A stretch of DNA of 33,983 bases from Alphaproteobacteria bacterium (GTDB lineage Bacteria; Pseudomonadota; Alphaproteobacteria; JAPYRI01). Both the position numbers and the translations under genes were made by a program. Below the pieces are notes generated by a model, which worked only from the letters and a program-made list of their open reading frames with translations, was not told the DNA's origin and did not search any database. Positions 16,059-22,322 of this stretch are shown here, in pieces (the stretch's first letter is position 1; each line of letters starts with the position of its first letter). The stretch is taken from contig JAPYRI010000025.1 in the NCBI GenBank assembly GCA_029941135.1, positions 1-33,983 of the forward strand, in the 5' to 3' direction.

Positions 16059-16402
16059 CTTACTCCCCCTGCATTGACCGATCATTGCGCCGGTTCAATG
16101 ATCGAATATATCGTCGATGTTGATATCCGTTTTTATTGGCCGCTAGACTACCTGTGCACCGAAGGAAATAACACTCAAAATGTTATAAATATTTACGGTT
16201 GTGAATTTTGACTTGGAAATTCTTGAAAGACCTTTTTGCGCAGAATTTGCTTTAGATTTTCAAAACAAGTGCACTTTTGTGTGGTCCGCGATTGATAGCT
16301 GTCGGCCCTTCGAATTTCATAAACATCTGGCAAAATTACAGTTTCTCTGATTGGTTAGAAAATACTGTTTATCGGAAAACTAATTTATTGCGGGGAGACG
16401 AT
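16059..16402. promoter_or_regulatory. Divergent control region between the lactonase and hyuA
   Basis: This 344-base AT-rich gap holds no convincing gene and must contain promoters for both divergent units. Visible symmetry includes ATCGA-N8-TCGAT at 16101-16118 near the lactonase start, and a palindromic element at 16261-16279 nearer hyuA (listed separately). An open frame continues upstream of the hyuA ATG to 16277, but it has no family similarity and no ribosome site. Confidence 0.45.
16261..16279. promoter_or_regulatory. Candidate operator palindrome upstream of hyuA
   Basis: AAGTGCACTT (16267-16276) is a perfect 10-bp palindrome, and the arms CAAAA (16261-16265) and TTTTG (16275-16279) form a second overlapping inverted repeat. 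It is about 125 bases before the hyuA ATG, a place where a local regulator could bind. No regulator gene is in the window. Confidence 0.3.
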
Positions 16403-18466
16403 ATGGGGTACCGGATCTCGGTGGACAGCGGCGGTACTTTTACTGATGTAATCGTCGCGGATATTGAAGGTGGCCATACCGTCGGTAAATCTCTAACGAC
16501 GCCAGATCGCATTTGGAATGGAATGCGCGGGGCCATGGAAAATGCCGCTGATTTGCTCAGCATTAGTTTTATTGACCTCCTTCAGCAAACCGATATTTTG
16601 ATCTATGGGACCACCCGCTCGACCAATGCCATCGTTCAGAACAAAGTGGCGAAAACAGCACTGCTCACGACGGAAGGTTTTCCCGATACTTTAGTGCTGA
16701 AGGAAGGGGGAAAATTTCGGCCCCACGATCTCAATATGGTTTATCCGGAACCCTACATCCCGCGCAGTCATACATTCGAGATCACCGAACGGGTGAGCAG
16801 CGAAGGCGAAGTTACTGTCAAACTCGATGCGACCCAAACTCGAGAAATTTTGGCCATACTCCTCAAACGGAATTTCGAAGCTGTGGCTGTGTGTTTTTTA
16901 TGGTCGATTGCCAACCCTGAAAATGAACTGGAAATGGCGCAATTGCTGGATGAATGCCTCCCTGGTATGCCTTACACATTGTCCCACCAACTGGTGCCGA
17001 TTATCCGCGAATACCGGCGTGCTTCGGCCACCGCAATTGATGCGTCCTTGAAACCGCTCATGCAAGAACACTTGCGCGAGATGAATAATGATCTGCGCGC
17101 GGCAGGCTATGAAAATGAAATTTTGGTCAGCACGTCTGTCGGTGGGTGCCTCCACGTGGAGGAGCTGATTGAACGCCCAATTCACACGGTGAAATGCGGG
17201 CCTGCCATGGCACCGGTAGCAGGACTTACTTATTCCCAAATGGAAAACATGGGGCAGGACGTGATCATCTGCGACACCGGCGGCACCACATTTGATGTAA
17301 GTCTTGTTCGCGACGGGCAGTTGAAGTTTACACGCGAGACGTGGCTTGGCGGCCAGTATACGGGGCATTTGTTGGGAATTTCATCGGTCGATGTGCGCAG
17401 CATTGGTGCCGGCGGCGGATCGATCGCTTGGATTGACGACGGCGGCCTCATGCGGGTGGGGCCCCACAGTGCAGGCGCCGACCCGGGGCCCGCGTGTTAC
17501 GGCAATGGCGGCGATGAACCGACGGTCACGGATGCGGCCACCGTGCTCGGCTATTTGGACCCAAATTTTTTCCTGGGCGGCCGCATGCGCTTAGATGTAG
17601 AGGCTTCGCGACGGGTGACCGGGCGGATCGCCGCTCAAATTGAACAATCAATCGAGGACACGGCGTTTGCCATCTGCAATCTTGCCAATGAATTGATGAT
17701 TAAAGCGATCCACGAAATTACCGTCAGTGAAGGCTTTGACCCGCGCGAGTGTACATTGGTTGCGGGTGGGGGAGCCGCCGGTTTAAATATCATGCCGATT
17801 GCACGCGAAGTCGGATGCGAGCGCATAATTCTGCCCAAAGTAGCGAGTGCGCTAAGCGCCAGTGGAATGCAGTTTTCTGACATTGTAACTGAGCGTACGA
17901 TCAGCAGTGTGACAGTGTCGGATCGATTTAATTTCGATGCGGTCAATGGGGCATTGCTTAAAATCGATGAAGATTTACGATTGTTCGCCAAAGGGCTTGA
18001 AGGCGAAGGTCGGGAGAAATTCAAAATCGAATTTTTTGTCGAAGCCCGATATCAATCTCAAGTGTGGGAACTGGATGTGCCTTTGCCAGTTGAACGGTTC
18101 AATAATCAATCGGATGTTGACGCGTTAATCGAGGCATTTCACCAAGTTCACGGTCGGGTGTTCGCGATTCGCGATGAAGGAAGCCACGTCGAGTGTATTA
18201 ATTGGAAAGGCATTCTGACAGTACAATTGCTGCATCCGAACATTCACACCACTAAAATTACTGAAACTTCTATGGGGAAACCTGTGAGTACCCGTACGGC
18301 ATTTTTCGGCGATGGCGGTGTCGAAACACCGATTTATCGAGAGCTTCAGAAGGGCGCGCAAATCAAGGGTCCGGCAATTATTGAAGAGCCCACCACAACC
18401 ATCGTCATCTACCCTGGTATGTCGGCGCGGGTGAGCGGCGGGAACAATTTTATTCTCGAACTTTGA
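16403..18466 (+). CDS. hyuA: Hydantoinase/oxoprolinase family protein, subunit A (HyuA-like)
   Basis: A 687-residue ATPase subunit of the N-methylhydantoinase/5-oxoprolinase/acetophenone carboxylase family, which phosphorylates an amide or enol oxygen so that the partner subunit can open or carboxylate it. The N-terminal phosphate-1 loop is DSGGTFTD (residues 8-15). The second nucleotide motif is DTGGTTFDVSLV (from D291). Further family blocks are CGPAMAPVAGL, RSIGAGGGSIAWIDDGG and GADPGPACYG. The start at 16403 has GGGGAG 5 bases upstream and begins MGYRISVDSGG, the usual N-terminus. hyuB follows after 30 bases. The substrate cannot be assigned from sequence: hydantoin, oxoproline and aryl ketone enzymes share these motifs. 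Confidence 0.92.
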   Translation: MGYRISVDSGGTFTDVIVADIEGGHTVGKSLTTPDRIWNGMRGAMENAADLLSISFIDLLQQTDILIYGTTRSTNAIVQNKVAKTALLTTEGFPDTLVLKEGGKFRPHDLNMVYPEPYIPRSHTFEITERVSSEGEVTVKLDATQTREILAILLKRNFEAVAVCFLWSIANPENELEMAQLLDECLPGMPYTLSHQLVPIIREYRRASATAIDASLKPLMQEHLREMNNDLRAAGYENEILVSTSVGGCLHVEELIERPIHTVKCGPAMAPVAGLTYSQMENMGQDVIICDTGGTTFDVSLVRDGQLKFTRETWLGGQYTGHLLGISSVDVRSIGAGGGSIAWIDDGGLMRVGPHSAGADPGPACYGNGGDEPTVTDAATVLGYLDPNFFLGGRMRLDVEASRRVTGRIAAQIEQSIEDTAFAICNLANELMIKAIHEITVSEGFDPRECTLVAGGGAAGLNIMPIAREVGCERIILPKVASALSASGMQFSDIVTERTISSVTVSDRFNFDAVNGALLKIDEDLRLFAKGLEGEGREKFKIEFFVEARYQSQVWELDVPLPVERFNNQSDVDALIEAFHQVHGRVFAIRDEGSHVECINWKGILTVQLLHPNIHTTKITETSMGKPVSTRTAFFGDGGVETPIYRELQKGAQIKGPAIIEEPTTTIVIYPGMSARVSGGNNFILEL

Positions 18467-18496
18467 CAACTGCAGCAACTTCCAAGGGGTTGAACA

Positions 18497-20296
18497 ATGA
18501 CGGTTGAAGAAAGCAATTCCAAACAGGATCTGGATCCTGTCTTAACTGCGGTATTGGCCAACCGGTTGGACGGCATCGTTCGCGAGATGTCCAATACCAT
18601 GCTGCGCTCAGCACGTTCGGCTGTCATCAACAGCGCACGCGATTTTTCATGCTCTATCGTGACCGCTGAGAACGATCTGCTCGCGAGTGCCGAAGGTTTG
18701 CCGGTTCACATCTTTGGATCGAACCTCCAAGCCGCCTCAATGTGTGATTTGCATACTGATCTGGCAGAGGGAGATGCCTATCTTCACAATGACCCATATT
18801 TGGGCAATACCCACCCGGCCGACCACACTATTTTGGTACCCGTGTTTCATGATGGCGAACACATGTTCACAGTTTGCGCCAAGGCCCATCAAGCCGATAT
18901 CGGTAACAGCGCGCCAACCACCTACCACCCTGCCGCGAAAGACGTTTACGAGGAGGGATCCTTGATATTCCCGTGTGTACGGGTCGAACGAGATTACCAG
19001 CAAAACAACGACATCGTCCGCATGTGCCGCAGCCGCATTCGCGTGCCCAATCAATGGCAAGGGGATTTCCTGGCAGGCATCGGGTCGGCGCGTATCGGCG
19101 AGCGGCGACTAAAGGAGTTTTGCGAGAAATATGGGCGTGACACGATCCGCATATTTATTGACCAATGGTTTGATTATTCCGAACGCCGAATGGTGCAGGC
19201 AATCAAGAATATGCCCAAGGCACAGATGATCAATCATGGCGCCCATGATCCCTTCGAGCCCTTGTTGCCCGACGGCATTCCCATAAAAGTGATTATCAAT
19301 GTGGACCCGGATGAAGCGGTCATCGACATTGATCTTCGCGACAACATCGATTGCGTTGATTGCGGGTTCAACGAATCTGAAGCTTGCGCCACTTCCAACG
19401 TTGTCGCCGGCGTGTTTAATTGCCTCGGCGCGGATGTTCCTAACAATGCAGGTAGCATGCGGCGCATCCGCGTTCACCTGCGCGAAAATTGCGTCGTCGG
19501 CATTCCACGTTTCCCGCATAGTTGCTCGGTCGCAACCACCAACGTTGCCGATCGGCTGGTCAACATAACGCAATCCGCGTTTGCCCAATTGGGCGAAGGC
19601 TACGGAATCGCCCAAGGCGGTGCATCCATGGGCGGCGGCAATGCTGTGGTTTCGGGCGCAGATTTCCGCCGGGATGGGGAGCTTTATATCAATCAAATGT
19701 TCTTGGGCAGTGGGGGCGGGCCCGCAACACCGCAAAATGATGGCTGGGTCACATACGGCATTCCTGTTGTGTCCGGCCTTATGTACCGGGACAGCGTTGA
19801 GGTTGATGAACTGAAGCACCCGATTGAAGTTAAGTCATTACGTTTGGTATCCGGGGGCGGAGGTGCCGGAAAGTTTCGCGGCGCGCCGGGCGCCGAAGTC
19901 ATCTACGGTTCAAAAAAAGATGTCATGACGGTCGCCTGTCCATGCGACGGGCAACATAATCCGCCTGAGGGCGTGCGCGGGGGTGAACACGGTCAGAAGG
20001 CATCGACTTATAAAATTTCACGCAATGGCGACCGGGAGAAACTGCCGAATGTCATTCAAATGGATTTTATGCCGGGCGAGTTATTGATGGCGATTGATAA
20101 TGGCGGTGGAGGCTACGGCAATCCTTTGGAGCGCGACACCGACAGGGTGCTCCATGATGTGCGCGAAAACTGGGAAAGTTTGGAAAGGGCGCGCGACGTT
20201 TACGGCGTTGTGATTACTGGCACCATTGATGGCGAAAATCTCGCTGTAAATCAGGGCGCCACAGATAAACTTCGTGCACAGATGGCGACGCAATAA
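18497..20296 (+). CDS. hyuB: Hydantoinase/oxoprolinase family protein, subunit B (HyuB-like)
   Basis: A 599-residue partner of HyuA, about the usual length for subunit B. Conserved blocks are LANRLDGIVREMSNTMLRSARS, NDPYLGNTHPADH (from N98) and AHQADIG (residues 130-136), the latter two containing the His/Asp metal-site cluster known from carboxylase structures; the more usual 'HHxDIGG' form is AHQADIG here. GGGNAVVSG and SGGGGAGKFRGAPG glycine loops appear in the C-terminal half. AAGGGGT precedes the ATG by 6 bases. The pair is followed on the same strand by a class III aminotransferase 17 bases downstream, so an operon is likely. Confidence 0.93.
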   Translation: MTVEESNSKQDLDPVLTAVLANRLDGIVREMSNTMLRSARSAVINSARDFSCSIVTAENDLLASAEGLPVHIFGSNLQAASMCDLHTDLAEGDAYLHNDPYLGNTHPADHTILVPVFHDGEHMFTVCAKAHQADIGNSAPTTYHPAAKDVYEEGSLIFPCVRVERDYQQNNDIVRMCRSRIRVPNQWQGDFLAGIGSARIGERRLKEFCEKYGRDTIRIFIDQWFDYSERRMVQAIKNMPKAQMINHGAHDPFEPLLPDGIPIKVIINVDPDEAVIDIDLRDNIDCVDCGFNESEACATSNVVAGVFNCLGADVPNNAGSMRRIRVHLRENCVVGIPRFPHSCSVATTNVADRLVNITQSAFAQLGEGYGIAQGGASMGGGNAVVSGADFRRDGELYINQMFLGSGGGPATPQNDGWVTYGIPVVSGLMYRDSVEVDELKHPIEVKSLRLVSGGGGAGKFRGAPGAEVIYGSKKDVMTVACPCDGQHNPPEGVRGGEHGQKASTYKISRNGDREKLPNVIQMDFMPGELLMAIDNGGGGYGNPLERDTDRVLHDVRENWESLERARDVYGVVITGTIDGENLAVNQGATDKLRAQMATQ

Positions 20297-20313
20297 TTAT
20301 CTGACACGGTAAA

Positions 20314-21669
20314 ATGGTGAAAATAAGCATGACTGTATTCCCAGACTCCCAGTCAAAATCCGCGCAGCACTTTGAGCAGGCCAAAGAAATCCTGCCCATG
20401 GGGGGCAGCCGGTCGTTACTGCATATGGATCCCTATCCCCTATTTGCCAAATCAGCCGAAGGTTGCCGCATAACCGATATGGACGGCGTCGAGCGGGTTG
20501 ATTTTGTCAATAACTACACGACTTTGCTGTTGGGGCACTGTCATCCGGCGGTCGTCGCGGCGGTCCAGAAACAAGCCGCGATTGGTATGTGCTGGGCATT
20601 GCCCGATGAAGCTGAATACCGATTGGCCGCGCTGTTGTGTGCACGCGTGCCGTCAGTAGAACAAGTCCGCTTTTGTAACAGCGGAACTGAGGCGGTTATG
20701 ACGGCCATCAAAGCCGCGCGCGCCTATACCGAAAAGCCGAAGATCGCCAAGATCGAGGGGGCTTATCACGGCTCTTACGACTATGCCGAAGTGAGCCTTG
20801 CGTCCGACCCCCAGAACTGGGGTCAGGGAGACCCGGTGTCGGTGGCCTATTCGCGGGGTGTGCCGCAGGGAGTTTTGAACGACGTCGTGGTTCTGCCGCA
20901 CAATAAAGTGGAAGAATCGCGCCGAATTTTGGAGACCCATAGGGACCAGCTTGCGGGTGTGCTGTTTGATGCCATCCCGGCCAAAATCGGCTGCATCCCG
21001 GCGGACCCAGAGTACACAGCGATGCTGCGCGACTTCACTCGCGATACCGACACGGTATTTATTTTGGACGAAGTGCTGACATTCCGGGCAGGATTTGCCG
21101 GTGTTCAAGGCGCGTATGACATCGATCCCGATATCACCACTCTGGGCAAAGTCATCGGTGGTGGCTTGCCCATAGGCGCGATTGCTGGGCGCAAAAAGTT
21201 TATGGAGGTGTTCGATCAGCGCCGGGGTACACCGGGTCTCGCCCACACCGGCACTTTTAATGCCAACCCGATGAGCATGGTCGCAGGCCTCGCGGCAATG
21301 ATAACTTTGCAACGAGAAGATTTCGACCGACTGAATGATCTTGGCCAGTATGCCCGCGACACCTTGGCCGAAACTTTCCGCATTGCCGGTGTTGAAGGGC
21401 AAGTAACAGGGGATAATTCACTGTTTTATATACAGCTCGGTGAAGATGAGATTATCGACTACCGTAGCGCCTATCCGGCCCATAGCGGCGAACGGGCCGA
21501 GATCATCGAGCAGCTTTACAAGCACCTGCTCAATCAGGGTTCAATAATTGCGCCTTTTGGAGTCGGCTGTCTGTCGACGCCCATGGAACGACCTGATATA
21601 GACAGGCTCGCCGAGGGGTTGCTGAGCGGCTTGCGTGCTTTGACGGCGGGCACGCTTAAGGTCGCCTAA
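20314..21669 (+). CDS. Class III aminotransferase (glutamate-1-semialdehyde aminomutase-like)
   Basis: A 451-residue PLP enzyme of the HemL-like branch. Signatures are VDFVNNYTTLLLGHCHPAVV near the N-terminus, FCNSGTEAVMTAIKAAR (PLP phosphate cup), EGAYHGSYDY, the pyridine-binding D252 in ILDEVLTFR and Schiff-base lysine K279 in TLGKVIGGGLPIGAIAG. HTGTFNANPMSMVAG follows. It is unlikely to be the haem-pathway HemL itself because it stands in a hydantoinase operon; a catabolic transaminase or aminomutase acting on an amino or beta-amino acid is the better inference. The ATG at 20329, with GGTGA 8 bases upstream, is an alternative start. Confidence 0.88.
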   Translation: MVKISMTVFPDSQSKSAQHFEQAKEILPMGGSRSLLHMDPYPLFAKSAEGCRITDMDGVERVDFVNNYTTLLLGHCHPAVVAAVQKQAAIGMCWALPDEAEYRLAALLCARVPSVEQVRFCNSGTEAVMTAIKAARAYTEKPKIAKIEGAYHGSYDYAEVSLASDPQNWGQGDPVSVAYSRGVPQGVLNDVVVLPHNKVEESRRILETHRDQLAGVLFDAIPAKIGCIPADPEYTAMLRDFTRDTDTVFILDEVLTFRAGFAGVQGAYDIDPDITTLGKVIGGGLPIGAIAGRKKFMEVFDQRRGTPGLAHTGTFNANPMSMVAGLAAMITLQREDFDRLNDLGQYARDTLAETFRIAGVEGQVTGDNSLFYIQLGEDEIIDYRSAYPAHSGERAEIIEQLYKHLLNQGSIIAPFGVGCLSTPMERPDIDRLAEGLLSGLRALTAGTLKVA

Positions 21670-21722: not shown

Positions 21723-22322
21723 ATGTCCATGGTTATTAACCGCCGGGACCTCGACTTTTTGCTGAACGAGGTTCTTGATACTGAACGCCTACTTAATCGA
21801 GAGAAGTATGCCGAGCACGACCTCTCGACTTTGAACGCGGTCCTCAATACCGCCCACGATATAGCCGAGGACAAATTTGCCCCCCATGCTGATAAATCGG
21901 ATGCTGAAGAACCGTATTTTGACGGCGAGCGGGTCCACATCATTCCAGAGGTTGCCGATGCCCTGGAAACTTTGACGATTGACGCAAAATCTTTGGCGGC
22001 GGCGATTGCGCGCGCACGGGTCACGACCACGTGTTTGGCCGAAGTTGGGCAACGCGGCGAAAACAATCTGTTTTTGGCCAATGCCACCGTCTATTTGGAA
22101 ATGATGGGCCGGATCGTGATGTCGTGGATATGGCTACGGCAAGCCATCGTGGCGGTGCAAGCGATTGGCGACGTTGAAGGCGAAGATAAAGCGTTTTACG
22201 ACGGCAAAATTCAAGCCTGTCATTATTTTATTCGCTGGGAATTGTCCAAGGCACAAACCGAGGCCGATTTGTTGGAAAGCCTCGACTCGACCTGTCTCCT
22301 TATGCCTGAGGCCGCGTTCTGA
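21723..22322 (+). CDS. Internally deleted acyl-CoA dehydrogenase (N- and C-terminal ends only)
   Basis: A 199-residue open frame whose two halves resemble opposite ends of the roughly 600-residue acyl-CoA dehydrogenases that carry an extra C-terminal domain. Residues 1 to about 84 (INRRDLDFLLNEVLD, AEDKFAPHADKSD, FDGERVHIIPEV) match the N-terminal helix region. Residues from about 90 (LAAAIARARVTTTCLAE, LFLANATVYLEMMGRIVMSW, AFYDGKIQACHYFIRWEL, LLESLDSTCLLMPE) match the C-terminal domain. The FAD-binding middle and catalytic glutamate are missing, with the junction near 21975. The frame is intact, so it may be a recent in-frame deletion, a decaying gene, or a small protein with a new role. 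Enzymatic activity is not expected. It ends 3 bases before the convergent dehydrogenase stop. Confidence 0.7.
   Translation: MSMVINRRDLDFLLNEVLDTERLLNREKYAEHDLSTLNAVLNTAHDIAEDKFAPHADKSDAEEPYFDGERVHIIPEVADALETLTIDAKSLAAAIARARVTTTCLAEVGQRGENNLFLANATVYLEMMGRIVMSWIWLRQAIVAVQAIGDVEGEDKAFYDGKIQACHYFIRWELSKAQTEADLLESLDSTCLLMPEAAF

Follow-up and report, generated by a model that had tools for sequence, protein, structure and literature searches.

The locus at 21723..22322 on the forward strand raises the question of what a protein can be that resembles a large acyl-CoA dehydrogenase at both of its ends and has nothing of the enzyme in between. In the window, i.e., the whole stretch of 33,983 nucleotides that was analysed, the locus is an open frame of 199 amino acids with an ATG start and a TGA stop. 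A Pfam search assigned residues 79-195 of the protein to the acyl-CoA dehydrogenase C-terminal domain Acyl-CoA_dh_C (PF12806, model positions 7-124 of 124, E = 3.4e-27), whereas the core domains PF02771, PF02770 and PF00441, all of which were matched in a full-length relative, had no match in the 199-residue protein. The N-terminal part aligned to the same end of over 50 full-length relatives, with up to 58-59% identity to their residues ~8-87 (E ~ 1e-23 per genome), and the C-terminal part (residues 84-199) was 46-47% identical to residues 484-596 of a 597-residue relative from genome G168. When solved structures were searched with phmmer, the FadE5-type chain 6lq6 was matched twice, at residues 8-73 and 533-612, once by each end; the N-terminal stretch alone is weak against solved structures (E about 1) and strong against the closer relatives. 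An earlier note on this DNA had taken the two halves for opposite ends of one family, and this holds, since both match the same ~600-residue proteins in many genomes. Its sizes for the two parts (84 and 110 residues) and for the missing segment (~400) prove accurate to within a few residues on alignment with full-length homologues. Judged from these alignments, the 199-residue frame is the start of a large acyl-CoA dehydrogenase fused in frame to its C-terminal domain.

When 55 full-length relatives were aligned with the protein, the join fell between residues 82 and 83, at about 21968/21969; the earlier note was right that the join is in frame, and had put its site near 21975. The gap is exactly 393 residues in each of the relatives L009, L010 and L011, which cluster with the window protein in a tree built with FastTree, and 393-423 residues across the 55. 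The lost segment covers the whole flavin-binding and catalytic core, so that the FAD site is missing, as had been claimed. In the G168 protein, PF12806 begins at residue 466; all but the first few positions of the domain are kept in the window protein.

Features of the remnant and of the genes that precede it (positions in the window).
Feature	Position	Strand	Basis or remark
N-terminal part (~82 residues) of a FadE-type large acyl-CoA dehydrogenase	21723..21968	+	Start at 21723 or 21729; similarity to full-length relatives
Deletion junction, lacking 393 codons that the closest intact relatives have	21966..21974	+	Alignment with 55 full-length relatives
PF12806 (C-terminal extension domain), stop codon	21969..22322	+	Pfam E = 3.4e-27; 46-47% identity to the G168 relative
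hyuA	16277-18466		Precedes remnant
hyuB	18497-20296		Precedes remnant
Class III aminotransferase	20314-21669		Precedes remnant

We consider the best explanation to be a recent in-frame deletion in the gene of a large FadE-type acyl-CoA dehydrogenase, which is now a gene remnant, and give this a probability of roughly two in three. According to this reading, a single-copy gene of this type would have lost about 1,179 bp (393 codons, in frame) in one internal deletion, and with them the core that binds FAD and carries out catalysis. This would have happened recently enough for neither a stop codon nor a frameshift to have followed; the frame is free of both from 21723 to 22322, in agreement with the earlier note. 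The product, if made, would most likely be unfolded or inert and the gene decaying; a protein with neither FAD site nor catalytic base cannot work as a dehydrogenase. We infer that the organism itself carries the deletion, that the deletion is recent and that no function is left, and that the remnant is most likely a case of ordinary genome decay. Like other pseudogenes and remnants that arise from one internal in-frame deletion, it shows a single occurrence, a clean join, an otherwise normal sequence and full-length relatives; it differs from them in having no later stop or frameshift, its decay being presumed. Relative to the FadE-type large acyl-CoA dehydrogenases with PF12806 (mycobacterial FadE5-type, PDB 6lq6 and 6kse), the N-terminal ~82 residues and the C-terminal domain are shared, in the same order and in one chain, but the middle 393 residues, i.e., the FAD site, the substrate pocket and the catalytic glutamate, are not. 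Two points count against the deletion reading: the join lies almost at the start of the C-terminal domain, which is kept nearly whole, as would also be expected of a retained protein, and an intact frame has a one in three chance after a random deletion. For annotation, the locus is a caution against counting a clean 199-residue frame as an acyl-CoA dehydrogenase because of a strong Pfam match.

The sequence of the two ends was compared with that of the relatives. Columns in which at least 80% of the relatives agree were taken as conserved, and the expected fraction of changes came from a regression on median identity; the window protein differed at 5 of 45 such columns, against 0.114 expected (z = -0.06). 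Its root-to-tip (tip) length was ordinary, and the nearest protein was 50% identical over the retained columns. The few changed columns together with the ordinary tip length suggest that normal constraint acted on the remaining ends through almost their entire history, as would be expected equally with a very recent deletion, an artefact or a retained function. Codon-position GC was like that of the neighbours, except that the second-position value was low in the N-terminal part. Under neutral substitution alone (simulated with kappa 4), no stop had arisen in 43% of runs by 5% divergence, in 24% by 10% and in 6% by 20%; in a variant with an assumed 0.08 indels per substitution, the frame survived in 4% of runs at 5% divergence. 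Such survival makes the open frame explicable without selection; only if the deletion is old would the open frame by itself point to function.

The same absence of any sign of decay in the retained ends would be seen if the gene were intact in the organism and the contig either wrongly joined two places or followed a minority strain that carries the deletion. The fragmentation of the assembly into 178 contigs also favours such an effect, as does the finding that the short form occurs in no relative searched, and yet we hold it to be unlikely. Assembly collapse normally requires a long direct repeat at both breakpoints. In the nearest relatives, 'AYCAAGF' follows the N-side breakpoint and 'EEMLKTIEAAP' precedes the C-side one; the two sites are unlike each other and unlike the window sequence across the join, and none of the junction 14-mers is repeated elsewhere in the window. 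These dissimilar breakpoint regions and the lack of a recurring 14-mer make a repeat-driven collapse unlikely. A search of the window's own genome with a full-length relative returned 36 matches with acyl-CoA dehydrogenase similarity, and the best of them, a 619-codon frame on contig C19, reached 37% identity over nearly the whole length. This frame carries a C-terminal extension region itself and is only 29% identical over 64 residues to the 199-residue protein; by these identities, it is a separate, distant paralogue. The core is absent at orthologue-level identity not only here but from the whole 178-contig, 95%-complete assembly, which excludes its misplacement on another contig at the level of an assembly of that completeness, and a location of the missing middle elsewhere in the assembly was rejected. 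Two other own-genome acyl-CoA dehydrogenase matches outside the window, G000:C19:27581-28561 and G000:C55:13090-14103, have 1 or 2 stop codons within the alignment, and may be further remnants or alignments that overrun gene ends.

Still less probable, in our estimate, is a retained small protein in which the two ends form one helical domain, acting, e.g., as the partner or the regulator of a full-length enzyme of this family. The open frame, the conserved residues that are kept and the nearly complete C-terminal domain are in its favour. The C-terminal extension of VLCAD mimics a dimer-dimer interface, besides complementing the dimeric one (PMC5798300), and docking on another core by such interface mimicry is conceivable. 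In its own chain, an extension domain without a core would have nothing to pack on; a core-less protein, small and helical, might have been kept that docks on other acyl-CoA dehydrogenases through this domain, which we regard as a long shot. Against retention, the short form was absent from all other genomes examined. The searches covered 385 genomes of the class, of which 29 others matched, and 398 genomes of the phylum, of which 50 others matched (a few were shared between the two); all the genomes compared come from other orders than the source genome, none being closer. In most matching genomes, the two ends of the query matched the two ends of one ~600-codon frame, with identities for the N-terminal and C-terminal parts of 58% (residues 4-83) and 46% (residues 84-199) in the G168 relative (597 aa), 55% and 45% in the G265 relative, and 55% and 44% in the G041 relative. 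The exceptions among the matches listed were a 120-codon frame in G195, cut by the contig end, and a frameshifted copy in G347, and no second short form was found among these matches from either draw, all from other orders. The order of the nearest relative (7 genomes) held frames of 597-686 codons only, and no single place in the plasmid records covered 80% of the query.

A scan of the genome contigs yielded three distant relatives, with which the protein aligned poorly, and AlphaFold was therefore run on the single sequence. The resulting model was all helix, with a mean pLDDT of 50 and no confident fold, which without an alignment is weak evidence. No promoter-like or terminator-like site was found near the remnant. 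The suggestion that the protein serves as an oligomerisation partner of a full-length paralogue gained no positive support, as the nearest large paralogue, that on C19, is as distant from both the remnant and the closest intact relative as given above and has an extension region of its own. Between the two alternatives of the earlier note, the very recent deletion is thus favoured by the in-frame join, the lack of another short form and the normally conserved ends, while the retained small protein found no positive support. Should sister species turn out to have kept the short form, the case would illustrate how an enzyme can be cut down to its assembly domains. As a separate observation, the G347 copy, in a single-contig genome (L064:9057-10813, G347:C1), is split over two frames (-2 then -1) around residue 320, and is seemingly a frameshift-disrupted member of the family or else a sequencing error.

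The position of the remnant at the end of the hyuA-hyuB-aminotransferase unit had also been thought suggestive. The three genes occur together in G080 and G366 (hyuA 61-62%, hyuB 66% and aminotransferase 49-50% identity), and neither unit has an acyl-CoA dehydrogenase nearby, although the G366 contig ends beside the aminotransferase. This speaks against any such significance, and consistent with it, an acyl-CoA dehydrogenase was found in 0/17 aminotransferase neighbourhoods, and a hyuAB or aminotransferase match in 0/20 neighbourhoods of intact relatives. An acyl-CoA dehydrogenase as part of the unit was therefore rejected, as the unit recurs without one elsewhere; among the genomes examined, only the source genome has the association with the remnant. 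For the stretch of the window at 16277-21669, the closest named models were caprolactamase subunits and glutamate-1-semialdehyde aminomutase, all at scores below the cut-offs.
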